A model generated the notes under the pieces. It ran no database searches and was not told where the DNA came from. It saw only the letters and a program-made list of their open reading frames with translations. Below, piece by piece: positions 4,788 to 20,700 of a DNA stretch of 44,131 nt; the first letter of the stretch is position 1; every line of letters begins with the position of its first letter. Both the position numbers and the translations under genes were made by a program. Origin of the DNA: Candidatus Peregrinibacteria bacterium CG_4_9_14_0_2_um_filter_41_14 (GTDB taxonomy: Bacteria > Patescibacteriota > Gracilibacteria > UBA1369 > UM-FILTER-41-14); contig PFRW01000051.1 in NCBI GenBank assembly GCA_002788755.1, forward strand, positions 1 to 44,131. The letters are read 5' to 3'.

Positions 4788-5462
4788 TCACACTACCGGG
4801 TACCCCGACAACAAATCTCGCAAAGCCGCAGCAGGATCAGCCGCCTTACAAACTCCCGAAGCAACCAACACCCCTCTAGCCCCATACTCTACGGCAATTC
4901 GCACATCGTCGAAATCACGTACGCCGGCACCAACTAACAATTTGTCACCCCCAATTAGCTTTAACGCCTTCTTTATCACATCAGCTTGCGATTTTGAAAT
5001 CGAAATATCTCCACCAATCAGTTCCGGTGGCTCTACAGCCAAATAATCCGGCTCAAACTCTAAAAACGACCATCCTTCCTCCGCCGTCTCACAACAAACA
5101 ATTGTCACCAACCCAGACCGTTTTGCCGAAGTAATCGATTCTTTTAACACTTCTCGCTCCAATCTATTTTCTGAATGATTCAAAATCGTCCCCCACCCCC
5201 CCATATTTTTAACCCGCTCCGGCACAATTTTCCCTGTATAAGACCCCGCACAAGCCGGATCCACATGTTGCGCCAACTTTTTTACATTTGGAAAATCCGA
5301 AACCGCCCCAAAATCCAACGCCTGCACCGCACACGTCACATTTACATGCGGAAATTCCCCTGCCACTTCGTCATGAATTTTTAAAAGCGCCTCCGCATTA
5401 ACTCCAGAAGCCTCTGTATAAGTCTTAAAATTAGTGATGAATAGAAAATTGTTGGTAGCCAT
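4788..5462 (-). CDS. tpiA: Triose-phosphate isomerase, short archaeal-type
   Basis: 224 aa; NFKTY, GWGTILNHSENR, YLAVEPPELIGGDISIS, VGAGVRDFDDVRIAVEYGARGVLVASGV. Confidence 0.88.
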   Translation of the reverse strand: MATNNFLFITNFKTYTEASGVNAEALLKIHDEVAGEFPHVNVTCAVQALDFGAVSDFPNVKKLAQHVDPACAGSYTGKIVPERVKNMGGWGTILNHSENRLEREVLKESITSAKRSGLVTIVCCETAEEGWSFLEFEPDYLAVEPPELIGGDISISKSQADVIKKALKLIGGDKLLVGAGVRDFDDVRIAVEYGARGVLVASGVCKAADPAAALRDLLSGYPVV

Positions 5463-5464
5463 AG

Positions 5465-5493
5465 TTGAATTATTAGTAATAGTGTGCTATTAT
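5465..5493 (+). promoter_or_regulatory. Candidate sigma70-type promoter for the giant ORF
   Basis: TTGAAT (5465-5470), 17-nt spacer, TATTAT (5488-5493), 34 nt before ATG 5528; palindrome TAATAG-TGTG-CTATTA overlaps the -10. Confidence 0.55.
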
Positions 5494-5527
5494 TTAAAGA
5501 TTTTGAAATATATAACGTACTTGTCTC

Positions 5528-8500
5528 ATGTTACAAAACCAATTTGGAAGCCACAAGACGAATAACCAAAATAGTTTCACCTTTAAGGAAAAACACCTAA
5601 TCGGATTCGAACTGTTTGGCGATCTTGAAAATGAAAGTACCAACGACCCAAAAATTGAAACAGTGCAAAACCTCCAAAAAAGTCTCAATACAATCAAAAA
5701 AAATGACGAAGACACAACCGAACATAACACAAGCATTGAAAAATCAATTTATGAATTACTAAACGACGAACACGACCTAGACACAACAACGGCAAGCATG
5801 ATTGCTAAACATTTAAGCAATAAACTTAAAGAAAAAAACGGCGCCTATCCGGACGGAAACCTCCAAAACCGCGATATCGTTGTCAAAAACAAAGGTAACA
5901 AAATTACCGTCTCAACCCACGAAGAAACAAGCTGGTACGACCTCGAGAATTACGAAAACACCTATTTTACAGACACAGTGGATTTAACAGATGAAGATAT
6001 TCAAGAAATCATTAACGAAAACATTGCAAACAAAGCCGTAGCAACCAGTAGCCTTTCCAGTTACATAGATCGATCCAAAGTAGTTCCCGAAGATGATCGC
6101 TGGAGAAGCAGATATCTACTATTTCAAACCGAACAATCGTTACAACAGATCAACAAAGAACCCCTGGAATCAGATGAATATTACGGTGTACCTAAAAACT
6201 TTACCGATCGTTTTAATGACGCAACAGGTATGAGAGAAGCAATTTTAACCGAACAAATTAGTGATAGTCAAAATCTCGTTAAACTATTTGCCAGGCTTGG
6301 CATCAACCAACGTCAATTTTTAGAAGAATCATTTGGCTCAAGTTTTTTTGGCAATCTAGAACCTGGTGTTTCCGCACAACAAATTTTTGAATTCAGCAAT
6401 TTAAGCAAAAAATACGACACAATTGAAGATGCCCAAAATCGTCTTCAAATTTTAGCCAAAGATCCCGACACAAATCGCAAAGAAATAAGCGAAATCACCA
6501 GAAACATCCGTGATATCCGCGCCCTTGGCGAAATGTTAAGAGACTTGGAATACCACGCGCCTGACAAAAAAAATCCTGACTACATTAGTAAAATTAATTT
6601 TAGCAATGCCCTAGATGCCAAAAGTAAAGAAGCCTTTAAAGATAACCCAGCAATTATAATGGCACTTATGGGCTATCTATATGGCTTAAAAAATCTACAA
6701 AAAGAACAATACGTCAGCTACAGTCTAAACTCCGATCAACGGTTCGAAGCCTTTATCGAAGAAGTACCGGCAAGAGACTACGACAAATTACTAAAAGCAT
6801 ATCAAAAAATTGATATCACATGGGCACTTGGAAGCCAAACTCTAACGGAAGGTATTCAAGAATTATCAAAACCGGAATATGCGGACGTAAGAAGCATCCT
6901 CGATGCTGCAAAACTAGATTACATTGGACAAGGTGACAGCCCCATTGCAAGTGACATCGCAAGCCTTATCGCCAATCCTCTGAATACAGGTCCCATTAAC
7001 GAAGACTATGAAACATTAACTCAAGAAGAAATGACCGGTCCCGGCGCTACCGCCGAGTCTGCAAACTTTGTTAATCGTCAATACTCACAAAAAGCGATCT
7101 ACGAAAGTATTCTCCGTGACTGCCGTGACTTTAAAACAAACCAATACGATCTAACAAAATTAGAAACAAATCTAAAACGCTACGCCGAATATGGACGTTT
7201 ATACATCGCCCAAAACCCGGAAGCGCTTAAAGAAAACAATACATCACTTCTAAATACTCAGTGGCCGGAGAACACACCGCTACTCAACGCTCTAGCCGAT
7301 AAAAACTTAATTCAACTGATTCGACATGGCTTTTTACTAGAACAAAAAGTAAAAAATTCAACAAAAAAACAAGTAAAGGGATTAGACCAAGACTTACAAC
7401 AAAACAAAATTAATCCTCAAGAATTAGCACACTTCCTCACCGGCCTACACCTTGATAAAGACGGACTAGAAAAATTAGGTCTTGGCGCCGCACTAGTGAT
7501 CAATTTAGACGATGCAGGTAATCCAAACCAAAACAGTATTCATGTTGGCGGTGCAGCCAATGTCCTTGATCCAAAAGAAAGCGGCATTATTATCACATTT
7601 AGCCGTAACAATACGGAAACCGGAACCGAAGCCAGTGCTGGCACAGTGCTCAACCCTTACACAGCCAATATCGGTTTCAGTATTAAAGGTGAAATTTCTA
7701 AAAATTACCACATACGTCTTAACGGTGGCATTGGCACATTTGGACCAGTCCTTGCCGCCAGTATAGGCGCCGGCTTTGGTCGCGACTTAAAGACTTACAC
7801 AACCGAACACGAAGAAGAAACAATCAAAGAATTCTACGACACAAAAGGCACTGTTTTTGAAGAACTCAATGCGGCTCAAAAAGCCAAAAAATCCGAAACA
7901 GAGCAAATGGCGATTGTTAATAAAATCCCCCACCTTAAAGAACTACACGAATATTTCACAAAGCAAACCCCGCCTTTACCAGAAAAACAAATTAATGAAA
8001 TTTTCATCGGTGAAAACGGACTAGCTAATGAACTACAAAACAACATAAAAAATTATGCCGTTGAAAACACAAGCGAAGTAGGTTGGGAAGTTGGCGGTGG
8101 ACTTGCGTTCGTCGATATTTTTGGCGTAACAGTTCCTATCCCCTATGCCTACATTAGTCTGGAACTTCCAACCGGCAAAACCATTATGCGTTACAGCATG
8201 CCATCAGACGTTGAAGCCAACACACAAATTCAAATGGAAGATGCCATTCAAGCACAATTACTTGAACAAGCGGGCACAAGCCAAAATCTAATAGTTACAT
8301 CAACAAAAAGCGGCGAAGTTTATTTCGATAAAGAAACCGGCCAATGGCGTATAAACCAAACGCGTGGGATTCCAGAACTTGGCACTTTAAATGCAGACCA
8401 AAAAGCCAAAGCCAAAAAACTCACAGAAGCATACAAAGCTTATGGCATCACCTTTAGTGAGATTACAGATCCAGCCTATACCACAAAAGATGGACTCAAA

Positions 8501-10339
8501 GACAATGGCTATCTAGCTATGGAACTAAATACAGATTTTATTGGAGATAACAATGTTGAAGTCCACGTTGATCCATCCGCTAGCGGCATTCACCTAACCA
8601 CCCTTGGCGAATCAACCGATGACGGTAAGCTTAAATTTGCCGCCAACGTTAATGGTGCCAAAAATCTATTCATTACAAGACGAGAGAACCTCAAAGCTGA
8701 CGGTACCAACAATATCATCATCACAATCACCGACAAAAAAGGTATGTCACTCGAAGAAATCGAAACCAAAGAGCCCGGATATTATCATTTCCAAAACAAC
8801 CGTATGAAATATGTAAATGGTACATATTTTGAAGGACAACCACCAACGCCCGACAAATTAACTTTAGGAGGATCAAATCGTAATATCGAAAACAGACTAT
8901 TCAATAATCAAATAATTACGCCAGAGATACTAAATAGTAGTGAATACATTAACAAAACACTAACTACAACCACATCTCCGGACAGCCTTATGGCAGAACA
9001 TACACAAACATTAAATACATTAGTTAAGAAGCTAAGCACAAAAGATAAAAAAGGGTACGCCGCAATTTCAACTCTAAAATTAAAAGATGGCGAAATGCCA
9101 AATCTAGAAAAGATTAGCACTTTCATCAACACACAATACAAAAAAGCATTCCCGGGCAAACAGATAACCCAAGCGGAATTTCAATACCTCTATGAAAAAA
9201 TTACAGAAGAAACATTTGTCGATCTTAATACGATAAAAAATAAAGAAGCTCACATCAACCATGTAATAGGCATGTCCGATCGTTTCATAGATCGCGCCCT
9301 TAAAAACGCACCTACACTTAAAACAAAATTCACACCTGCAGAAATACTAATCATTAGACAAGAAATCAAAGAAGATTTTAAAATCGCCCTTCAGGGACCA
9401 AGTGAAACAAAGTTCAACACTCAATCATTAAAAGACGCCGGTCTTATCGAAAACTACTTCGTCTCCACAGCAGCCAACCAAGCGGTTGGCCTAGAAAACA
9501 AAGGATACCGCTACGTTGATACCAATGATGATAGCAGCATTAAAATACTAGAAAACTCAATAACTCAATACAGCTTGACCAAGGAAGGTGCATCAAACGA
9601 AGAAAAACTTGTAGCCAAATTCATCCTAGAACTCAGCGATCCTATTGAATCAACATCAAATGCTATAGATCAAGCCCACACATTACTCGGCTCACAATTA
9701 GCCATCAAACTTGCAACTCTACCAATTGGTATGCAAGGTGGCAAAACAATCAATTTCTTAGCACTAAAGATGGGTCCACAAAATGCACAAATAATAGCTG
9801 ACCTAATTAATGATCCACTAAATCTCTTTAGTGGTAACGGACAAGAATTCGCCCCTGAAATGAGCCCCGCTTATAATGAATTTTTACAATTTGTAAAAGA
9901 AATACGTCAAAATCAAATAGACGGTAAACCATATAAATTTGAAGTAGGAGAAGGCAACAACAAAATGCAAATTGAAATGAACATGCCAACACAACTATCC
10001 AGTCTCCTTTTATCTCGATGCGGTAATACAACTTTTGCCAGCCATGAAGGTATCGAAATCAAAGTCACCAATGCTCAAGGCGAAATGCTAGGAGGCTACG
10101 CCGAGAACAAACTTCACGGATACAAGACAACAGAAAGCGCCGACACTGCCAAGCTTACACTAGGATTATCATTTAAACCTGATGTCCCAACTAAGAAAAC
10201 ACCTGGAGGAGGCGGCGACGGAGAAGGCGGCAAAGAACCCACCCCACGCCCTGATGATACCGGCGGCAGTCCCGCTGTTCCCAAAGAAGACTCTAAAACA
10301 GTAACAGGTGGCGGTGGCACCACAGAACCAAGCCGCTAA
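5528..10339 (+). CDS. Giant protein of unknown function (1603 aa) with Gly-rich strand-like segments and a Gly/Pro-rich C-terminus
   Basis: Uninterrupted ORF; no signal peptide or TM segment seen; segments such as TANIGFSIKGEISKNYHIRLNGGIGTFGPVLAASIGAGFGRDL; tail KTPGGGGDGEGGKEPTPRPDDTGG...GGGGTTEPSR. Confidence 0.85.
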   Translation: MLQNQFGSHKTNNQNSFTFKEKHLIGFELFGDLENESTNDPKIETVQNLQKSLNTIKKNDEDTTEHNTSIEKSIYELLNDEHDLDTTTASMIAKHLSNKLKEKNGAYPDGNLQNRDIVVKNKGNKITVSTHEETSWYDLENYENTYFTDTVDLTDEDIQEIINENIANKAVATSSLSSYIDRSKVVPEDDRWRSRYLLFQTEQSLQQINKEPLESDEYYGVPKNFTDRFNDATGMREAILTEQISDSQNLVKLFARLGINQRQFLEESFGSSFFGNLEPGVSAQQIFEFSNLSKKYDTIEDAQNRLQILAKDPDTNRKEISEITRNIRDIRALGEMLRDLEYHAPDKKNPDYISKINFSNALDAKSKEAFKDNPAIIMALMGYLYGLKNLQKEQYVSYSLNSDQRFEAFIEEVPARDYDKLLKAYQKIDITWALGSQTLTEGIQELSKPEYADVRSILDAAKLDYIGQGDSPIASDIASLIANPLNTGPINEDYETLTQEEMTGPGATAESANFVNRQYSQKAIYESILRDCRDFKTNQYDLTKLETNLKRYAEYGRLYIAQNPEALKENNTSLLNTQWPENTPLLNALADKNLIQLIRHGFLLEQKVKNSTKKQVKGLDQDLQQNKINPQELAHFLTGLHLDKDGLEKLGLGAALVINLDDAGNPNQNSIHVGGAANVLDPKESGIIITFSRNNTETGTEASAGTVLNPYTANIGFSIKGEISKNYHIRLNGGIGTFGPVLAASIGAGFGRDLKTYTTEHEEETIKEFYDTKGTVFEELNAAQKAKKSETEQMAIVNKIPHLKELHEYFTKQTPPLPEKQINEIFIGENGLANELQNNIKNYAVENTSEVGWEVGGGLAFVDIFGVTVPIPYAYISLELPTGKTIMRYSMPSDVEANTQIQMEDAIQAQLLEQAGTSQNLIVTSTKSGEVYFDKETGQWRINQTRGIPELGTLNADQKAKAKKLTEAYKAYGITFSEITDPAYTTKDGLKDNGYLAMELNTDFIGDNNVEVHVDPSASGIHLTTLGESTDDGKLKFAANVNGAKNLFITRRENLKADGTNNIIITITDKKGMSLEEIETKEPGYYHFQNNRMKYVNGTYFEGQPPTPDKLTLGGSNRNIENRLFNNQIITPEILNSSEYINKTLTTTTSPDSLMAEHTQTLNTLVKKLSTKDKKGYAAISTLKLKDGEMPNLEKISTFINTQYKKAFPGKQITQAEFQYLYEKITEETFVDLNTIKNKEAHINHVIGMSDRFIDRALKNAPTLKTKFTPAEILIIRQEIKEDFKIALQGPSETKFNTQSLKDAGLIENYFVSTAANQAVGLENKGYRYVDTNDDSSIKILENSITQYSLTKEGASNEEKLVAKFILELSDPIESTSNAIDQAHTLLGSQLAIKLATLPIGMQGGKTINFLALKMGPQNAQIIADLINDPLNLFSGNGQEFAPEMSPAYNEFLQFVKEIRQNQIDGKPYKFEVGEGNNKMQIEMNMPTQLSSLLLSRCGNTTFASHEGIEIKVTNAQGEMLGGYAENKLHGYKTTESADTAKLTLGLSFKPDVPTKKTPGGGGDGEGGKEPTPRPDDTGGSPAVPKEDSKTVTGGGGTTEPSR

Positions 10340-10369
10340 ACACTAACAATTCGTTAACTAATATCTTCC

Positions 10370-10597
10370 ATGCAAAAAAAGAAAACTAACTACACAGTAT
10401 TATTGACAATAGCGGTAGTTGTTGTTATAGTAACTCTCTTGAGTATATCTTATTACAAAGCTCATTATGGTCCTCTTCCATACGAACAAGACTATAATGA
10501 ACTAAATGCGGAGCAAGGATTATCGGGCATCGACTACGAATACAAAGGGCCGAATCTCGAAAACTTCCCTCCACCCCCACAAGCACCATCTAACTAA
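10370..10597 (+). CDS. Small single-TM protein with Pro-rich C-terminus
   Basis: MQKKKTNYTVLLTIAVVVVIVTLLSISYY N-terminal anchor; ends NFPPPPQAPSN; tightly spaced between same-strand ORFs. Confidence 0.75.
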   Translation: MQKKKTNYTVLLTIAVVVVIVTLLSISYYKAHYGPLPYEQDYNELNAEQGLSGIDYEYKGPNLENFPPPPQAPSN

Positions 10598-10605
10598 ACT
10601 ATACA

Positions 10606-13515
10606 ATGCCTAAATGGAAAATCATGAAAAAAACCGGTATGTATCTGGCAGCAACAGCCACCGCCGCTCTACTTAGCTTAGCGCTATTTCAAACTGCCAC
10701 AATCGCACAAAGTACATGTACTCCAAATCAAAACACTTTTAGAGATGGACTTGTATTAGAGGAATGTCCCAATGGTACAACCTCCCCAACTTTTAATGCA
10801 TACAAAAATTACGAATACAAAGATTACACTCGTTTTGATGAAAGAAATTTCTTACAAGTACGTAAACTTACAAACGGTGCTTACGTCGATAACGTCTCAG
10901 TATTACCAGGTGACACACTACGTTTTAACGCTTATTTACACAACAACTGTGATCCAAGCTTAAATGATGGTGGCAATGGTGTTTGTGTTGCGCACAATGT
11001 CGAAACATTTGTTCGACAATTCCTTGAGAACAATCAACAAAACTTTCAAACCACACCCTCACTTAAACAAACAATTACGCAAACGTTTTCAGCATCAAAC
11101 GCTACACCAAGACAAGTAACAGATGACGTCGTTGTACGAAGTGCTGACAATCAAAATATCGTCTTAGAATACATCCCAAATACCGCTCTTTACTATAATG
11201 CGCTCAATCCTGATCGCACATATAAATTATACGCCAGAGAATTATTTGGTAATGGTGCGCAAGTAACATCAGTTAATCGTAATGGCACAATAAATAACGA
11301 CGGTGACTTTTTTGGCAGCTCCGCTTACATCACCTACTTTAATTTCGACGTCATCATCAAACGACCCCCAACCCCACCGCCAAGCGCAGCGTGTGTAAAC
11401 CTACAAATTACAAACGTTGTAAATAATGCCGATGGCTCAATTAATTTTAGCTGGACCACAAATCCAACTGACTATGCAGATAAAGCGGTACTAGCCCTTA
11501 AACAAGGCCCTGGTACTTTAGAAATGCTCGGCAACAACCGGGCACGTCTTAGCAACTTTAACAAAGATACAGTTGTTACTGTATTTGTTCCGGGATCAGA
11601 GCAACAATGTAAAGATGAGCTACCTGTAGCCCCTTACATTCCCCAAAATCCATGTTATGACCTTGTCTTAACTCCAGATAAGTTTAACCCACTCGAACCT
11701 AGTCATAGATTCAGTGTGCAAACTAATCCAAACAACTATAACGAATTAAACTGGAAACTAACCGGACCAAACACCGACGTAACCGTGATGGTTGCCGGTG
11801 ATAAACGTTCGGCCGTCTTTACCAATTTAGGACCCGACCATGTAGTTAGCGTCTTTGCCACAGGTGAAGTTGCTCCGGGCAAAAAATGTGAAGACGAAGC
11901 TCGATCACAATTACCTCCTCCAACAGAATACTGTTTAGCTGCTAACCTAAAACCAAATCATTTCCCTGCCAATGGCGGACGCCGTGAATTTGTATTTGAA
12001 TACACACCTAACGAATACAAAGGTGACTTCATTTGGCGCACAGTTCCTGCCAATGTTGGTCTATTTGCCGACGGTTCGCAGATTGGCAATGCCATTACCA
12101 CCCGTGCCCGTCGCGTTGTTTATCGCGGTGGTCAACCGGGTACACAAGTAATTGTCGAAGCCAAAGATCCGGCCTTTAGATCAAAATGTACCGACATTGC
12201 CATTGCCCGAAACGACGTCCCGGCCGACGAAAACGACAACCTAGTTAAAACTGCTGATATCAGTCTTGCAAAACCAGGTGACACAGTGACTTACAATATC
12301 ACTTACAAAAAAGACCCGTTCTTCCAAAGCGACACAAACAACGTCACAATCTTCGATACTATTGGTAAAGAAGGCTTTGTCAGCGGTGATCGTGGTGGCA
12401 AAATTGTACCTGTAGCGGGATCGATGCGAGTAAACTTGCCAGTTTGTACCGGACTTGCCGCCACTAACTGTTACACAGGCTCAATCCTTAATCCAAACGG
12501 TATCACCTTACAACATTTTACAAATACCGCTCCGGTTAACATCTCTTACAAAGCAACCGTAAACACAGTGATTAATGCCGCCCTTTGCGAAAACCTTACC
12601 AACACTTTCTGTGGAGAAAAATTCACAAACGAAGCATTCGATACCGAAAATCACTTTGCTACTTGGACAATTACCGTTTTATGTCCAGCCTTCCGCAGCT
12701 TCGGCTTTGGCGATATCTTCCTAGAAGATACATTTAAAGGCGGTATCGATACCCTAAAATGTAACGGTAAACCAAATACTCAAGGTATTGTGGTAACTCC
12801 AACTAAACCAACAGACAACAAAATCGTAAGTACAGGTGAAGACGCTTCTCGTCGTCCAGAACATGGCGAATGTAAAAATAGTGATATCTTCCCTAACTTA
12901 TCGTCAGCTTTATGTGAGTTACAATCACAATTATCTGACGAGTTCACCAACAATCCTTTACGAACATTAACTCGTAATGCCGAACTGGTTTGTACCAATG
13001 CCTTAATTCGCGATAACGTGACCCTAAGAAACGGATCAATTTCCGAACTTCGTCAATACGCCAATCCAAACAACACTAACGAACTTGTAATCTGTGCCAA
13101 CACAATCACAACAACCGGCCCAATTACAATCGATTACGATGGCCCTGTAACTTTGGTCGCTAAAAAAGGTCTAACCATTAATGGTGACATCCTTTACAGC
13201 AAAAACACCAAAATCACACCATCTGTAGTCGCCGTAACCAACGGTGCTATTACCACCAACAAAACTAAAAAACTAAGCGGTATTTATATCGCCCTACCAA
13301 ACAGCGACAATCTTATTGCACCAATGGTCATCAATAACGATACAAGCCGCCCCGGTGCCCCGTTTGAAGTAGTTGGCTCCCTAATTGGTACCAGTTTCGA
13401 AGTTCAAAACAACGACTTCAACATCATCTACGACCTCGGTCGCTTCCTAATCACAGAACCTTCTGTGCTAAACGATGCCTTAGACTTTATTCAAGAAGTT
13501 ACGGTTAATCAGTAG
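10606..13515 (+). CDS. Secreted multidomain surface protein (tandem Cys-bracketed repeats, DUF11-like domain, C-terminal beta-rich domain)
   Basis: Signal peptide MKKTGMYLAATATAALLSLALFQTATIAQS; three Cys-bracketed repeats; KTADISLAKPGDTVTYNITYKKDPF...TNVTIFDTIG-like segment; ITTTGPITIDYDGPVTLVAKKGLTINGDILY-like C-terminal region. Confidence 0.85.
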   Translation: MPKWKIMKKTGMYLAATATAALLSLALFQTATIAQSTCTPNQNTFRDGLVLEECPNGTTSPTFNAYKNYEYKDYTRFDERNFLQVRKLTNGAYVDNVSVLPGDTLRFNAYLHNNCDPSLNDGGNGVCVAHNVETFVRQFLENNQQNFQTTPSLKQTITQTFSASNATPRQVTDDVVVRSADNQNIVLEYIPNTALYYNALNPDRTYKLYARELFGNGAQVTSVNRNGTINNDGDFFGSSAYITYFNFDVIIKRPPTPPPSAACVNLQITNVVNNADGSINFSWTTNPTDYADKAVLALKQGPGTLEMLGNNRARLSNFNKDTVVTVFVPGSEQQCKDELPVAPYIPQNPCYDLVLTPDKFNPLEPSHRFSVQTNPNNYNELNWKLTGPNTDVTVMVAGDKRSAVFTNLGPDHVVSVFATGEVAPGKKCEDEARSQLPPPTEYCLAANLKPNHFPANGGRREFVFEYTPNEYKGDFIWRTVPANVGLFADGSQIGNAITTRARRVVYRGGQPGTQVIVEAKDPAFRSKCTDIAIARNDVPADENDNLVKTADISLAKPGDTVTYNITYKKDPFFQSDTNNVTIFDTIGKEGFVSGDRGGKIVPVAGSMRVNLPVCTGLAATNCYTGSILNPNGITLQHFTNTAPVNISYKATVNTVINAALCENLTNTFCGEKFTNEAFDTENHFATWTITVLCPAFRSFGFGDIFLEDTFKGGIDTLKCNGKPNTQGIVVTPTKPTDNKIVSTGEDASRRPEHGECKNSDIFPNLSSALCELQSQLSDEFTNNPLRTLTRNAELVCTNALIRDNVTLRNGSISELRQYANPNNTNELVICANTITTTGPITIDYDGPVTLVAKKGLTINGDILYSKNTKITPSVVAVTNGAITTNKTKKLSGIYIALPNSDNLIAPMVINNDTSRPGAPFEVVGSLIGTSFEVQNNDFNIIYDLGRFLITEPSVLNDALDFIQEVTVNQ
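11393..12189 (+). repeat. Three tandem Cys-bracketed Ig-like protein repeats within the 969-aa protein
   Basis: CVNLQIT...QQC / CYDLVLTPDKF...GKKC / CLAANLKPNHF...RSKC, each about 75-90 aa with a shared 'N-P-x-x-Y...W' pattern (TNPTDY, TNPNNY, YTPNEY). Confidence 0.65.
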
Positions 13516-13562
13516 TCGAGCCCCAGCGAGACCTTGCGATGTCCTGCGATGTTTTCCCCCCA

Positions 13563-13590
13563 AGAGCCAGCAAATAAGCTGGCTCTTTTC
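13563..13590 (+). terminator. Rho-independent terminator-like hairpin
   Basis: AGAGCCAG-CAAATAAG-CTGGCTCT (8-bp stem) followed by TTTTC, 48 nt after the stop of the 969-aa ORF. Confidence 0.75.
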
Positions 13591-13614: not shown

Positions 13615-14571
13615 ATGAGCAAACCAAACATCTTCATCTTTAGCGGCAGCAACCAACAAGATGCCAAAACCGAAATCAACAAATGGCAACAAAGCTTTAA
13701 AGCAAAGCACAACGAAATCAATTTAGAAGTTTTTGACACAAACATAACCACTTCTCAAATTATTCAAAGCAGCCACACAATGCCCTTTTTAGGTGAACGC
13801 CGCCTGATCATTGTTCACGATTTTTTTAGTACCGCCAAAAAAGAAGAACTGGAAGCCCTAGTCAGCAAAGTTGCCGAAACCCCAGATACAACAATTCTTG
13901 TTTTTTTTGAAACAACACCACTCGATAAACGCCTAAAAACCTCCAAAGACTTACTAAAAATTGCCACAGTTAAAGACTTTCCCATTCTTCACAAAAATAA
14001 TATTCCCAAATGGATCATTAACAAAGCCGCCCAATTTGACCAAACAATTGACTACCACCTAGCAACAGAACTTGGCCACCAATTCAGTCAAAACCCAGAG
14101 CGACTAGACACCGAAATCACTAAACTATGCACATACAATGCACAAACCGAAATCACCAAAGAAGCCATTCAAGCCATCAACACCCTCCCCTTCCACGATT
14201 CCATTTTTGACCTAACCGACGCCCTAACCAGTACCAACAAACAAAACAAACTAACCATCCTCCACAATTTGTACCACCGCGGCGAAGACCTAATTAGACT
14301 CTTATACATGCTCATAAATCAAATCCGACTACTCACAATTACCCATTTGGTTAATAGCAACTTTGACAAAGTCGCCGAACTTAAAATTCACCCTTTTGTT
14401 CAGCAAAAACTCAAGCAACAAAGCCGCAACATTACCCTCCCCAAACTACAACAAATTTACGCCCGACTTCAATATTTAGACGAAGCCATTAAAACCGGCA
14501 AAATCAAAACCACCAAAGGCAATCAACAAGAAATTCTTTTTGCTCTGGAGCGACTACTGTTTATTGCCTAA
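13615..14571 (+). CDS. holA: DNA polymerase III subunit delta
   Basis: MSKPNIFIFSGSNQQDAKTEINKWQQSF...LGERRLIIVHDFF...; HolA-like C-terminus LQYLDEAIKTGKIKTTKGNQQEILFALERLLF. Start moved from 13534 to 13615. Confidence 0.8.
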   Translation: MSKPNIFIFSGSNQQDAKTEINKWQQSFKAKHNEINLEVFDTNITTSQIIQSSHTMPFLGERRLIIVHDFFSTAKKEELEALVSKVAETPDTTILVFFETTPLDKRLKTSKDLLKIATVKDFPILHKNNIPKWIINKAAQFDQTIDYHLATELGHQFSQNPERLDTEITKLCTYNAQTEITKEAIQAINTLPFHDSIFDLTDALTSTNKQNKLTILHNLYHRGEDLIRLLYMLINQIRLLTITHLVNSNFDKVAELKIHPFVQQKLKQQSRNITLPKLQQIYARLQYLDEAIKTGKIKTTKGNQQEILFALERLLFIA

Positions 14572-14808: not shown

Positions 14809-17800
14809 CTAACGAATCTGCACTACCCCTTTGTCTGTTCCCGATAAAACAATTTGCTCTTTATCTTTTAAGTTTTGTAGTGTGGCCGGCTCTGTCACAA
14901 ATTCACCCGGATTAACCACACGTGCATAATAGTAATAGTCATGGTCATTACAACTATTATCGCCAATCACACAGAAAATACTGGCACGTACATTCTGGCC
15001 AAGCTGATAATTTAAATACAAACGACCCTGAGACCACTCAGCATAATTAACTACAGGAAGCACTTTCAAACCACTTGGTAAAATATCGCCAATCACATAT
15101 GACCCCTCGTGGTCCCCAACATTCACATCAAAGACAACCTTAACTATATCCCCTTTGCTAAATGCTGTCGTTTGTTTTCCATCTACCCAATAACTACGCT
15201 TAATCTTAAGGACATCAGCTTGTTTAACATCAGCGTAAGCCACTTTTTGAGCATAATCAGTTACTGCAACTAAATCACCTTTAATATCAGACACCTTTAA
15301 TGAGGCAATTTCTTTGGGCAATAAATTCATTTCATAAGTTTGATTACCAACCAATTTCACTTTCTTACTATTAACCTTAAATTCAATCGCTTCGGTAAAA
15401 CCTTTCCCTAAACGTGACTTTGTATAAATTAACTGTTCCAGTAAAACACTATCATTTTGAGAAGCCACAAATTCACTACTTGTCGCATAAGCATGCTGCC
15501 ATAAGCGATCACGTTGATCACTATTAAGCTCTGAAGCAACATAAGCCAACATTGTTTCCGCCGCCACAGCATCCTCCGGCACAACAAACTCTTGAGCATT
15601 AAAGCTTACTACCGCCTGCCTAAACCAATCTGCGGCCTTTGACTTAGCACCAACTTTGGCATAGGCAACTGCCACCCACAACTGCTCATCAAACTTATTT
15701 AACTTTTGATTTGCAACCAAGTAATCCAAATCCACTAAGACAGACTCTTTTAATCCGGCCAAACCGGCTAAAGCTTGTAATTTTTCCACCAATTGATTTT
15801 TATTACTTAAAACAGAATTAAAATAAATTTTCATCTCTTCTTGATTCCATAAAGCAGGAGCCAAAATCGCCAATTTTGTTGTCGCCTCCAAACTAGCATC
15901 ACTATAAGCAAATAAACTAATTCCACCTTTATTTTTAGCCTCTTGATAAACCAATACCGGTGTATCCACTTTTAACAAACCACGCTTATAATACTCATTC
16001 AATAACTCACCTGCCACATACTGACCAGCCACATAATCGGCTCGATCAACATTATTATATAAAGACCGTGACAACAACGGATACAGCTTCCCCAGTTCTT
16101 GATTAACAAAGGTCAAATTAACACGACCATCATATTGTTGAGCAGCAAACGGCATCCCCTCTGTTACCTGTACAACCGCTTGTGCCGCTACTTTAAATCG
16201 AGAATCAACAACCTCAATCGGCAACTCAATTTTATCTGACTTTCCTTTTGCCTTCACAACGGTACTAATCACATGCTCACCCAATTTTAAAGGCAATGCA
16301 AAGTAGCTATTACTAAAGGCTTTGCCCGTTTTTGATTCATTATATCCTAAAGTTTTTGCAATCATTTCAAAATCGACTTTGTCAGTTACCGCCAAAATCT
16401 TACCAAACGCACGTACCGGAATTTGCGGCTTATCACCAACATTGTAGTCTGCACTAATTACCGGCAAAGCAAACAAATCTTGTGTCACCACAACCGGTGC
16501 CACCGCTCGTCCCACTCGCACAACATCACCACCGCTAATTGCCACAACCGATAAACGCCACTCGGTAATATTATCCGGTAATTTAACTTTTAAAGTTGCC
16601 TTACCACTACTATCAGTATTAACAGACGCAAAATAGGCTGTATCCTTAAAGTCACTGCGTCCACCTTTATCGTTATGCACATAAACTCCTTCCGCAAAAT
16701 AAGTATGATACTGCTCAACTTCAAAATTATAAACTGTGACAAATTCCCGCTTAAGCTCAACACTATTAACCAAAACCTCTTCACCATCACTTGTAACCAA
16801 ACGATCACCCACTTTAATTTTAGCGGCCAACTGCCACTGATTATTTACCCACACTACATGCACACCGGTCACATTAATTCGCTCATTAATTACCAAATAC
16901 TCATCTACGTTTGTTTGATGTAACCCGGTAACACGACCATTCACCAACGTTGAATCCCACTCGCTCGCACGTGTTTTAACTTGATCATCAATTTGTACAT
17001 CTTCAATTACCTTATAGCTACCATCTGCCATTAAAACTTTAGTACCAGCCAAGAAACACCCTCCCTTCTCACCACTTACATCATCTATTTGAGTATGAGA
17101 AAGATAAGAATAACTACCATCTAAATACAAATGTTTATAAATAGCCCCCAATGGGTCGGTTAACGCCTCACTAAATAGTGCATAGTAAGCTTCATCCACC
17201 AAGCGCACAGTTAAGTTGGCCGCCACCGGTTTCCCGGTATTGGCATCCTTAACCTCTACTTCAATGTCCGCTTCGTCACTGGGAGCATACTCGGCTTTAG
17301 TGGCTTTGGCATTAACGGTTAGTTCCCTATCGCTAGTATCCAAACCAATATCAATTGTAGTAGAACGACTATAATGCCGCCCATTAAATACCATCATCGA
17401 TGCATACACATTCGGCACATCTTCCTTGCCAAATTTAAACTCATAATTAGCATCACTTTGTAATTTGTAATTAAGACCTCCAACCTGCTTATTCATAAAC
17501 AAATAAGCAGTATTTGCCGACTTTGGACCAACAGCGGTTAAAGAGACCGTTTCCCCAATTTTATAATTAAACTGATTCCAATCACGGCCATCGGTGGCTT
17601 CCAAACTATAATAATCACTATCAGTAGACGTAGTGCCAAGATTCAAAAATTTACTCCCCTGATAGTCACGCCCCGACTTAACTACATACGACAACGTATA
17701 ATTAAAATCGGAATCCAAAGGCGCATCAAACTTAAAATCAATCTCCCCATTAGCATCAGACACAAAAGTATTTTTCATTACCGAATTCGTCCTCTTTTTG

Positions 17801-20130
17801 TACTCATACTTTTTACGTGTAACTTTACCAACGTAATCATAATATTCCCCAGCCAACACCCGGTCATACCGTGAACCTTCCACATTCACTACCACACTTA
17901 CATTGGCTGCTGACCCAACAATAATATCCTCCAAATCAGGGATAGAAAGTGCATTGCGATCTACCTTATTTAAATCAATTTTCGCTATATTCAAAGCAAA
18001 ACCATCTTGATCAAATTCAACATTTTCCACCGCTTCGCGGCCCTGATAAACAACAATATCCAATGAGTCAGCAATATAGCCCAATTCTTCACTAACAGTC
18101 GTTACAGTATGCCGATCACCTCCCACTAAACCGGACATACGATAAGCCTCCTCATCCGGAGACAACTTAACTGTCACCTTGCCCAAGTCATCAGTTGTAT
18201 AAACATTATTATCCAATTTAATCTTTGTTTGCGGAACAGGTGTACCGTCAAAGAAATTGGCTTTAACCTCCAAATTTACATCTTCATCATAATAATACAA
18301 ATACTTATCAGCCTGTAAATCCAAACCATATGCCGGCTTCACATAATCTTCAATCGCAATCCCCTCCGTCATTAACCAATTATCATCTTGATACACCGCT
18401 AATGTGTAATACTGATTAGGATTCAAATTGGCAAAACTAAATTCGCCACTAAAGGAACCGGTACCATCAAGTTCAATTCCCTGCTTTGCCAAAATCTTAC
18501 TGACATCGGCAGGTTTGGTTCTTGCACCAAAATAATCATCTACCAAAATCACTTCCGCTTTTCCCCTCAGCTTACTGAATCGCCCTTGTAAAAAGCCGGA
18601 GAACTTTACCGTATCGGTAGGCTTATAAACAGTACGATCAGTCATAAATAAATTCCAACTATCTTCACCAATCGCTTTGGAATCCAAACTATACTGCGGT
18701 ACATAATATGTAGTCATCGCCTCTGTTTCAACCACTACACCGGAATCATTGGCAATCTTATAATTAAACAAAGCAACACCGTCCTTTCCGGTTTTAATAA
18801 CATCTTTATCCACAGATACTTTTGCCCCCACCACCGGTTTACCGGTAGCAATATCATTAACCCAAACCAACGAGGCCGATTCGGTAATATCGATGTAAGT
18901 AGCCGTATTTGTCACCTGCAAGAAAGCCTGCCCCACTCCACCGGCACTTGCCAATTTTATCAAAAAATAACCAGCCGGCAGCTTGTCCGGAAATCCAATC
19001 TGATAACGCCCATTAACCAATCTTGCTTCGTATTCTTCCAAATCAACAATTTTAGTTAAGTTAGTCGTACCACTCTTATAATTCCTACTTTGATAAGAAG
19101 TCCAACTTGGTGCATTTTTTACATAATTAAGACGTTCGTTCAAAAAGGCGTCTCCACTCGGATATTGATAAACAGTAAGCGCAACATTAGCAATATCCTG
19201 CTCATTATTTGCAGAATCATAAAACTCTATCCCCTGATTATCCAATGGTGAAAACTCATAAAGACTCCGCATTATAGAGAAATAACTCTCCCTATCAGCC
19301 CCCCTACCTGTTTCAAATTCAAAACTATATTCACCAAGCTCCCGACCCTTAATTGTCACGGTATAAATGGACATTGGCGCTAAGCTTTCATCAGGCACAA
19401 ACAACATTGTCTTACCTCGATTTTCAAAACGCCCAGCAACAACCGGACTAATACTAAACATTTTTTTATAATCATCAACAGTCAAACCAGCATGTGAAAA
19501 AGTAATCTCAATCCCCGAATTAATTGGTGCATTTATCCCATACTTACCAGGTACGGTGGAAGTAACACGCAACCCATCATTAATCTGAAACGCCCACTGC
19601 AACTGTTGATCCGCCAAGGCCAACTGATAAATCTCTCCCGGCTGTAGCTCAGTTTTTGGCTTAATAGTGATCTCATTGGTACTTACCTTTTCAAGATCAA
19701 ACTCCGTTAGTGGTGCAAATGTTAAATTAGCTTGAATACTACTCACATCCAGATCGATTGTCTTGCTTGTTAATTTAAATCCTGAATCAACCGCCACAGC
19801 ACCGTTAACTTCCGTCACAGGTGTAATTTTGTACTCATCGTAAGCACTGGCAACATCAATCAAGTTTGGCAAAAGAATCAAGTTTCCGCCCGGCGCCAAA
19901 AACTGTGTCACAACTGCAATAAGCACTACTACCGCCGTAACCGGAGCCAACCATTTAAATGTCAGCCAATTACGCTTAACGCCAACATGCGAGACTTGTT
20001 CAGCCTTTTCAAGTAACCGCGCCCGTAAAGTCTGTTTAAAATACTGCTGCTTATCAACATCTATCTGTTTTTTAAATTTATTAGCCATATTTTTGAGAGT
20101 TTGTTGAAGTTTATTAAACGAATTAGTCAT
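14809..20130 (-). CDS. Membrane-anchored alpha-2-macroglobulin family protein with inserted Hint domain
   Basis: Cytoplasmic N-terminus plus TM (FKWLAPVTAVVVLIAVVTQFLA); MG-type domains including TDRTVYKPTDTVKFSGFLQGR, VDEAYYALF, DFKDTAYFASVNTDSSGKATLKVKLPDNITEWRLSVVAISGG; no CxEQ motif seen. Confidence 0.88.
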   Translation of the reverse strand: MTNSFNKLQQTLKNMANKFKKQIDVDKQQYFKQTLRARLLEKAEQVSHVGVKRNWLTFKWLAPVTAVVVLIAVVTQFLAPGGNLILLPNLIDVASAYDEYKITPVTEVNGAVAVDSGFKLTSKTIDLDVSSIQANLTFAPLTEFDLEKVSTNEITIKPKTELQPGEIYQLALADQQLQWAFQINDGLRVTSTVPGKYGINAPINSGIEITFSHAGLTVDDYKKMFSISPVVAGRFENRGKTMLFVPDESLAPMSIYTVTIKGRELGEYSFEFETGRGADRESYFSIMRSLYEFSPLDNQGIEFYDSANNEQDIANVALTVYQYPSGDAFLNERLNYVKNAPSWTSYQSRNYKSGTTNLTKIVDLEEYEARLVNGRYQIGFPDKLPAGYFLIKLASAGGVGQAFLQVTNTATYIDITESASLVWVNDIATGKPVVGAKVSVDKDVIKTGKDGVALFNYKIANDSGVVVETEAMTTYYVPQYSLDSKAIGEDSWNLFMTDRTVYKPTDTVKFSGFLQGRFSKLRGKAEVILVDDYFGARTKPADVSKILAKQGIELDGTGSFSGEFSFANLNPNQYYTLAVYQDDNWLMTEGIAIEDYVKPAYGLDLQADKYLYYYDEDVNLEVKANFFDGTPVPQTKIKLDNNVYTTDDLGKVTVKLSPDEEAYRMSGLVGGDRHTVTTVSEELGYIADSLDIVVYQGREAVENVEFDQDGFALNIAKIDLNKVDRNALSIPDLEDIIVGSAANVSVVVNVEGSRYDRVLAGEYYDYVGKVTRKKYEYKKRTNSVMKNTFVSDANGEIDFKFDAPLDSDFNYTLSYVVKSGRDYQGSKFLNLGTTSTDSDYYSLEATDGRDWNQFNYKIGETVSLTAVGPKSANTAYLFMNKQVGGLNYKLQSDANYEFKFGKEDVPNVYASMMVFNGRHYSRSTTIDIGLDTSDRELTVNAKATKAEYAPSDEADIEVEVKDANTGKPVAANLTVRLVDEAYYALFSEALTDPLGAIYKHLYLDGSYSYLSHTQIDDVSGEKGGCFLAGTKVLMADGSYKVIEDVQIDDQVKTRASEWDSTLVNGRVTGLHQTNVDEYLVINERINVTGVHVVWVNNQWQLAAKIKVGDRLVTSDGEEVLVNSVELKREFVTVYNFEVEQYHTYFAEGVYVHNDKGGRSDFKDTAYFASVNTDSSGKATLKVKLPDNITEWRLSVVAISGGDVVRVGRAVAPVVVTQDLFALPVISADYNVGDKPQIPVRAFGKILAVTDKVDFEMIAKTLGYNESKTGKAFSNSYFALPLKLGEHVISTVVKAKGKSDKIELPIEVVDSRFKVAAQAVVQVTEGMPFAAQQYDGRVNLTFVNQELGKLYPLLSRSLYNNVDRADYVAGQYVAGELLNEYYKRGLLKVDTPVLVYQEAKNKGGISLFAYSDASLEATTKLAILAPALWNQEEMKIYFNSVLSNKNQLVEKLQALAGLAGLKESVLVDLDYLVANQKLNKFDEQLWVAVAYAKVGAKSKAADWFRQAVVSFNAQEFVVPEDAVAAETMLAYVASELNSDQRDRLWQHAYATSSEFVASQNDSVLLEQLIYTKSRLGKGFTEAIEFKVNSKKVKLVGNQTYEMNLLPKEIASLKVSDIKGDLVAVTDYAQKVAYADVKQADVLKIKRSYWVDGKQTTAFSKGDIVKVVFDVNVGDHEGSYVIGDILPSGLKVLPVVNYAEWSQGRLYLNYQLGQNVRASIFCVIGDNSCNDHDYYYYARVVNPGEFVTEPATLQNLKDKEQIVLSGTDKGVVQIR
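16672..17058 (-). other. Hint (intein/BIL-like) domain, 129 aa, inside the alpha-2-macroglobulin-like protein
   Basis: Begins CFLAGTKVLMADGSYKVIEDVQIDDQV, block-B-like TGVH, block-F-like FVTVYNFEVEQYHTYFAEGVYVHN, followed by Asp. Confidence 0.9.
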
Positions 20131-20416
20131 TGTAAATTGGGGTTAGATGCTTAGATAACCGTTTTAAAGCCCGGTTAAGCTTAACTCCCACATTACTTGT
20201 GGAAGTATTAAGAACATTAGCAATATCTTCATAAGAAAGTTCTTCAAAATAACGAAGCGTTAAAACGTCTTGATCTCGGACTTTAAGCGCCGTAAAAGCC
20301 ACCGATACCTGTAAAATATCTTGCGCACGCTCTTCCTGTAGCTCTTCCGTTTTTAGTGAATGATCAGCTGCATCCGCAGACCAATCAAACTGTTGCATTT
20401 TTTCCTTATACGCCAT
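20123..20416 (-). CDS. ECF-type sigma factor, C-terminal region 4 (separate frame)
   Basis: LKVRDQDVLTLRYFEELSYEDIANVLNTSTSNVGVKLNRALKRLSKHL, a sigma region 4 HTH. Stop overlaps the start of the A2M-like ORF. Confidence 0.85.
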   Translation of the reverse strand: MAYKEKMQQFDWSADAADHSLKTEELQEERAQDILQVSVAFTALKVRDQDVLTLRYFEELSYEDIANVLNTSTSNVGVKLNRALKRLSKHLTPIYND

Positions 20417-20700
20417 TTCCGACTTTTACTCCTAAAATGCTGCCGTAATTCGTTCAGCGCAATTTTATACAGCCACGCAATAAAAGGCTTGCCGGTCCAT
20501 GTATAACCATCAAGCTTATTTAAGGCTATCAAAAAAGTTTCAGCTGTTAAATCTTCAGCCAAACCCACTTCGCCCAATCGCGTCAGCAAATATCGATAGA
20601 TTGCATCAAAGTACAAATCGTACAAAGCAACAAATTTGGTTTTATCAACCTTGGCCGCTGCTACCAATTCCTCCACATTAATTTCATTTTCCATTGCCAA
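20353..20700 (-). CDS. ECF-type sigma factor, N-terminal region 2 (frame ends early)
   Basis: FVALYDLYFDAIYRYLLTRLGEVGLAEDLTAETFLIALNKLDGYTWTGKPFIAWLYKIALNELRQHFRSKSRKWR, a sigma region 2; the frame is lost near the A6 run at 20398-20403. Confidence 0.85.
   Translation of the reverse strand: MAMENEINVEELVAAAKVDKTKFVALYDLYFDAIYRYLLTRLGEVGLAEDLTAETFLIALNKLDGYTWTGKPFIAWLYKIALNELRQHFRSKSRKWRIRKKCNSLIGLRMQLIIH

Follow-up and report, generated by a model that had tools for sequence, protein, structure and literature searches.

The analyzed window (the whole stretch of 44,131 nucleotides under study) harbors a block of three co-directional genes on its plus strand, here referred to as P1, P2 and P3, located between tpiA and holA. 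The intergenic gaps (30 nt for P1-P2 and 8 nt for P2-P3, from the ORF coordinates) agreed with those of the first-pass annotation, and so did the product types: P1 has neither a signal peptide nor a transmembrane (TM) segment, P2 has one TM segment and a PPPPQAP tail, and P3 carries a signal peptide that is typical by eye. The features of the locus were as follows.

4788-5462, minus strand: tpiA (triosephosphate isomerase), divergent flank upstream of P1 and conserved neighbor
5465-5493, plus strand: candidate sigma-70-like promoter, TTGAAT-17-TATTAT with TG, 9/12 consensus matches
5528-10339, plus strand: P1, 1603 aa, giant protein of an order-specific family
5576-5608, plus strand: P1 residues 17-27 (FTFKEKHLIGF), divergent copy of an N-terminal motif, 12.3 bits by position-specific scoring matrix (PSSM) vs. 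at most 5.6 elsewhere in the protein
7430-7792, plus strand: P1 residues 635-755, eight-strand antiparallel Gly-rich beta meander (AlphaFold, Foldseek, composition)
8081-8197, plus strand: P1 residues 852-890, additional beta-domain strands that follow a helical insert (AlphaFold)
10019-10027, plus strand: P1 residues 1498-1500, C-x-N motif (RCGNTT in the window; consensus GAYxKCxN)
10178-10336, plus strand: P1 residues 1551-1603, Pro/Gly/Ser/Thr-rich tail, found in most family members
10370-10597, plus strand: P2, 75 aa, single-TM anchor with a short Pro-rich tail
10606-13515, plus strand: P3, 969 aa, adhesin-like, 20 Cys, Sec signal peptide
12445-13512, plus strand: P3 C-terminal conserved region, with most of the invariant Cys/Gly columns; beta-rich C-terminal domain
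13562-13587, plus strand: intrinsic terminator-like hairpin, 10-bp GC-rich stem followed by a T-rich stretch
13615-14571, plus strand: holA (DNA polymerase III delta subunit; PF21694/PF06144), downstream flank and conserved neighbor; its ORF is listed from 13534, the likely ATG being at 13615

The promoter upstream of P1 had previously been described as strong; it turned out to be a 9/12 site, and sites of that quality were no more common in the region than expected by chance (21 observed vs. 21.6 expected). The terminator proposed 3' of P3 was confirmed: the hairpin was overlooked by a consensus scan and detected by folding against shuffled sequences (z = -3.2; 1 of 200 shuffles equally stable), and the terminator is real. 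An Rfam search of the window returned no match. Further along the window, positions 14809-20130 (minus strand) encode a 1773-aa bacterial alpha-2-macroglobulin (A2M) with a Hint/intein-like domain directly before the A2M domain (residues about 1024-1154, with a Cys start and a VHND end), possibly an intein or a bacterial intein-like domain processing this protease-trapping protein. Just upstream of that gene, one ECF-type sigma factor has its Sigma-70 regions 4 and 2 in two separate, overlapping frames (20123-20416 and 20353-20700, minus strand), a split that represents a frameshift, either real or due to a sequencing error.

The window genome (an assembly of 0.96 Mb in 69 contigs) belongs to an order of the Saccharibacteria, ultra-small bacteria, and the locus was compared among genomes of the same order, representing at least 16 families. 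In Candidatus Saccharibacteria bacterium CG2_30_41_52 (MNZN01000005.1), the C-terminal 788 residues of P1 have a counterpart with 100% identity (best segment). The gene order in relatives was tpiA (reverse orientation), giant P1, small P2 in part of the loci, P3 and holA. P1 and P3 were adjacent and co-directional in all 53 loci having both on one stretch, which cover most families of the order, with P1 being called by position and size rather than by profile in a few of the most divergent loci. At the flanks, 30 loci had tpiA and P1 on one stretch and showed them as divergent neighbors in 26 cases; holA was co-directional with P3 in 41 of 44. Single-sequence searches yielded weak matches to P1 in 6 of 58 genomes (its own included) and matches to P3 in 25 of 58, often a few kb away from P1; with profiles, P3 was recovered in 72 and P1 in 64 of 89 genomes from the order, usually in one copy. 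The locus is thus almost certainly a conserved, order-wide, single-copy core locus, and the maintenance of P1 and P3 together, which had been set beforehand as the check on the proposal of a joint unit, supports their being one functional unit. In two loci, L038 (G048, 5200-9181) and L043 (G045, 7532-12799), P3 was split into 2-3 ORFs, either assembly errors or decayed copies.

Sequence identity was unevenly distributed along the locus. Homologues of tpiA at the same place in relatives shared 35-50% identity (mostly 42-50%) and those of holA mostly about 31%, whereas values were 15-20% for P1 (between families) and 19-29% for P3. P1 and P3 thus diverge much faster than the flanking genes, as would be expected of surface parts.

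P1, initially labeled an orphan, belongs to a protein family whose shortest complete member has about 1480 aa and whose longest has 3344 aa; most members also lack a strong TM prediction. Neither the protein alone nor the family alignment (43 members, window residues 490-1560) gave any significant match against Pfam, NCBIfam, PHROG or PDB. A phage or prophage origin was considered and discarded, given that no PHROG or phage-record match was found. Outside the order, P1 was essentially absent from a class-level search, which returned one partial and two weak matches. The partial match, in a 3226-aa protein (G459:C8:128397-129428), covers the region of the P1 beta domain (E 1.4e-20), and this protein may be a distant P1 relative. 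The only invariant positions among the 43 aligned sequences were C1498 and N1500, with R1460, G1466 and S1371 nearly invariant. The AlphaFold model of the window P1 (mean pLDDT 68) comprised, in order, an N-terminal helical part, the beta meander, the helical insert, the further strands, mixed domains, and a C-terminal helical/beta domain, modeled with confidence, that holds the C-x-N motif and is followed by the Pro/Gly-rich tail.

The beta domain (20% Gly) was also modeled from a relative (39 sequences), with pLDDT values mostly of 83-95 for most strands. Its Foldseek neighbors in PDB were almost all transmembrane beta-barrels, including porins, invasin/intimin barrels, BamA, LptD, ushers and designed transmembrane barrels, with probabilities up to 1.00, yet none of these matches reached an E value of 0.001 (best E 0.003, at a TM-score of 0.22; TM-scores 0.2-0.46). 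The same picture was obtained among viral models and, for the most part, with the full window P1 model. As in porin-like proteins, the P1 model contains an antiparallel meander of at least eight strands. Neither its structure nor its sequence showed significant homology to any known barrel family. Designed transmembrane barrels, the top PDB profile hits (E 0.015, not significant), were set aside as evidence, since a domain-only profile ranked unrelated proteins higher. The domain reads as barrel-like and probably transmembrane, and not as a member of any known barrel family, although a soluble barrel would give the same strand pattern, and the monoderm nature of Saccharibacteria counts against the transmembrane reading.

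Compared with outer-membrane porins and transmembrane barrels (R. blastica porin 1prn, NanC, designed TMB10), P1 is alike in its Gly-rich antiparallel meander with strands of 10-15 residues, but differs in that the barrel-like domain lies inside a 1600-3300-aa protein of a monoderm lineage, with a large helical insert and no Sec signal. With autotransporter and invasin-type proteins, P1 has in common a barrel-like domain and long adjoining domains on one chain, and the barrels of intimin and invasin were among its structural neighbors; unlike them, it has no signal peptide, carries the barrel in mid-protein, comes from a producer without an outer membrane and shows no sequence match.

P2 was present in 20 of the 53 loci, either as a single-TM peptide or as a lipoprotein. 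Twelve loci have, between P1 and P3, an ORF of 54 aa or more that encodes a single TM segment, and all 8 loci with a gap of 153-204 nt and no called ORF contained a TM or lipoprotein ORF of 44-77 aa, several of them with a lipobox. In the remaining loci P1 abuts P3, and many families lack an intervening P2, a point against the three proteins always acting as one complex; the median gap over loci without a called intervening gene was 36 nt. The window P2, whose TM segment spans residues 9-27, shares GIxYxxxGPN with the 69-aa lipoprotein-like P2 of locus L036 and KGPN with the 47-aa P2 of locus L032. In one family, P2 versions of 163-178 aa with a beta-rich ectodomain were found; a cohesin identity of this larger form was discarded (1 of 5 proteins, E 0.0018, below the cut-off). 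From its distribution among the loci, P2 is a recurrent but dispensable anchor.

The N-termini of P3 in relatives also scored as hydrophobic. In the P3 alignment, Cys and Gly are invariant at many positions, most densely in the C-terminal half. The full-length protein is order-specific, but both its N-terminal and its C-terminal domain are also seen in other proteins of Patescibacteria. Depending on the lineage, homologues contain different inserts (SpaA, MucBP, peptidoglycan-binding domains and Cys-rich repeats). The DUF11 assignment originally made for P3 (TIGR01451) did not hold, as it scored 11.5 bits against a cut-off of 24 and was recovered in 1 of 13 homologues (E 0.018). P3 resembles DUF11/SpaA-type Gram-positive surface proteins in its beta-rich modules and in the SpaA and MucBP domains of its homologues, and has the Sec signal peptide of Gram-positive adhesins of the SpaA/MucBP type; prealbumin-like/MucBP modules were present in some homologues and absent from the window P3. 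Unlike such proteins, the window P3 showed no module above cut-off and no LPXTG sorting signal was seen in it, while its conserved Cys-rich C-terminal region is absent from every library. The earlier proposal of a surface structure is well supported, as far as sequence features go, for P3 (signal peptide, conserved cysteines and the domains in homologues) and for P2 (TM or lipoprotein anchor); in the case of P1, we infer a surface role from the barrel-like domain and from a motif that it has in common with lytic enzymes.

This motif, L-x-[KF]-E-x-R-[FL]-[VIL]-[FYW] (short form KExR[FL][VI][FY]), lies within the first 45 residues and is nearly all that the N-termini of P1 homologues share, with only 16 of 38 complete homologues scoring at least 13 bits for it. 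The motif profile matched further ORFs in the same genomes, nearly all at the very N-terminus of proteins without a TM segment; no further motif protein was found in the window genome. In these proteins the motif is followed by a Pro/Glu/Ala/Lys-rich linker, and the domains detected were Phage_lysozyme2 with GDSL lipase, Glucosaminidase, Beta-lactamase2/S11, and WG or choline-binding (cell-wall-binding) repeats, all of them with a usual site of action outside the cytoplasm; for a further ten motif proteins, Pfam returned nothing. When a PSSM trained without genome G013, although with homologues of the same families from sister genomes, was scanned over the 611 ORFs of G013 (691 kb), four hits of at least 17 bits were obtained, all at residues 9-16 of TM-less proteins and none internal: P1, a neighbor pair of 1325 and 360 aa, and an 849-aa lysozyme/GDSL protein. 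A single internal window out of 171,653 reached at least 12 bits (13 bits). The motif was also N-terminal in all but a few of 30 further loci. Its presence as a pan-Patescibacteria feature was rejected, since among 240 genomes across the phylum three outside the order had a single chance-like match, two of these being 37-aa ORFs. The neighbor pair of motif proteins recurs (L099:3612-8679 in G013, also L094 and L104), with a large member of about 1325-1359 aa (G013, G047) and a partner of about 340-360 aa, no Pfam domain being found in those scanned; it is another candidate secreted pair. The substrates of type VII secretion (ESX) also lack a signal peptide and carry a short recognition motif, WxG/YxxxD/E; the likeness lies in export without a signal peptide and recognition through a short motif, and the difference in the motif itself, here the N-terminal KExR[FL][VI][FY]. 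A search of the literature available to the analysis found no earlier description of the motif, of pore-forming or giant proteins, or of non-classical secretion in Saccharibacteria.

A Sec-exported P3, an anchor P2 and a signal-less P1 carrying the motif of lytic enzymes suggest a contact apparatus served by two export routes. In the mechanism proposed here, the locus would be a core host-contact (cell-surface) locus of the order. P3 would act as a Sec-exported, disulfide-rich, modular adhesin-like protein that varies between lineages, while P2, where present, would be a small membrane anchor whose short extracellular tail holds the complex to the epibiont membrane. P1 would leave the cell by a Sec-independent route marked by the N-terminal motif, its barrel-like domain would enter a membrane at the contact between epibiont and host, and the C-x-N domain and flexible Pro/Gly tail would link it to P2/P3 or to the wall. 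Export and membrane insertion of P1, physical association of the three proteins and the host-contact role are all steps that we infer. A surface or host-contact role of the locus is likely, and the complete model with P1, P2 and P3 stands at about even chances; export of P1 by the motif-marked route falls slightly short of that, and a pore or channel function is doubtful. Tentatively, and with a similarly low expectation, the motif might be a new, lineage-specific export signal of Saccharibacteria through which enzymes and giant proteins lacking a signal peptide leave the cell. P1 would then be the largest protein exported in this way, forming a giant beta-barrel channel that cooperates with the P2/P3 adhesin where epibiont and host meet, perhaps within the envelope of the host.

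The candidate route for P1 is the type IV secretion machinery of these bacteria, a link that we hypothesize from the co-presence of a VirB4-like ATPase, found in 50 of 56 genomes including that of the window. In a member of the same bacterial group, S. epibionticum, envelope adhesins and type IV secretion/pili were essential for epibiotic growth by Tn-seq; no coupling or relaxase proteins are recognizable in its type IV secretion system, for which protein export or another role was proposed (PMC10633639). The likeness to the present case lies in the occurrence, within one bacterial group, of envelope proteins with adhesion-type domains (VCBS, FN3, dockerin) and of an essential candidate machine for protein delivery, but the accessible portion of that account describes neither a giant-protein locus between tpiA and holA nor an N-terminal motif (PMC10633639).

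The near-universal secretion motor, the essential type IV secretion system of S. epibionticum (PMC10633639), the motif common to P1 and muralytic enzymes, and the barrel-like domain would also suit P1 as an effector that reaches the inside or the surface of the host cell by type IV secretion or another Sec-independent route and acts alone there, for instance as a pore, with P2 and P3 as co-expressed attachment factors. This is rather unlikely: a gene kept in single copy, in fixed synteny and always paired with P3 would more typically encode a structural component than a variable effector, and P1 has no toxin-like enzyme domain. The lack of a signal peptide or TM helix in P1, and of strong TM predictions in most homologues, would be in keeping with a cytoplasmic scaffold or cell-organizing protein, in which the motif is an intracellular localization tag, the beta domain is soluble and only P2 and P3 are on the surface; that possibility is also a minor one, considering that the motif proteins include enzymes with peptidoglycan substrates and that nearly every structural neighbor of the beta domain is a transmembrane barrel. 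A structural layer of the envelope, S-layer or wall-like, formed by P1-P3 with no special host-contact role, compatible with large, single-copy core proteins and with wall-binding domains in P3 homologues, is very unlikely, since the very fast divergence relative to flanking genes and the lineage-specific adhesin domains point to a variable partner.

How Saccharibacteria and other Patescibacteria attach to and feed on host bacteria is a long-standing question. With two very large, fast-diverging core genes kept in single copy at one position throughout an order, the locus is a strong candidate for a part of the host-contact apparatus, and the interval from tpiA to holA is where to find it in any genome of this kind. 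The motif would mark a possible export route missed by signal-peptide predictors, and with it candidate secreted effectors may be listed genome by genome.
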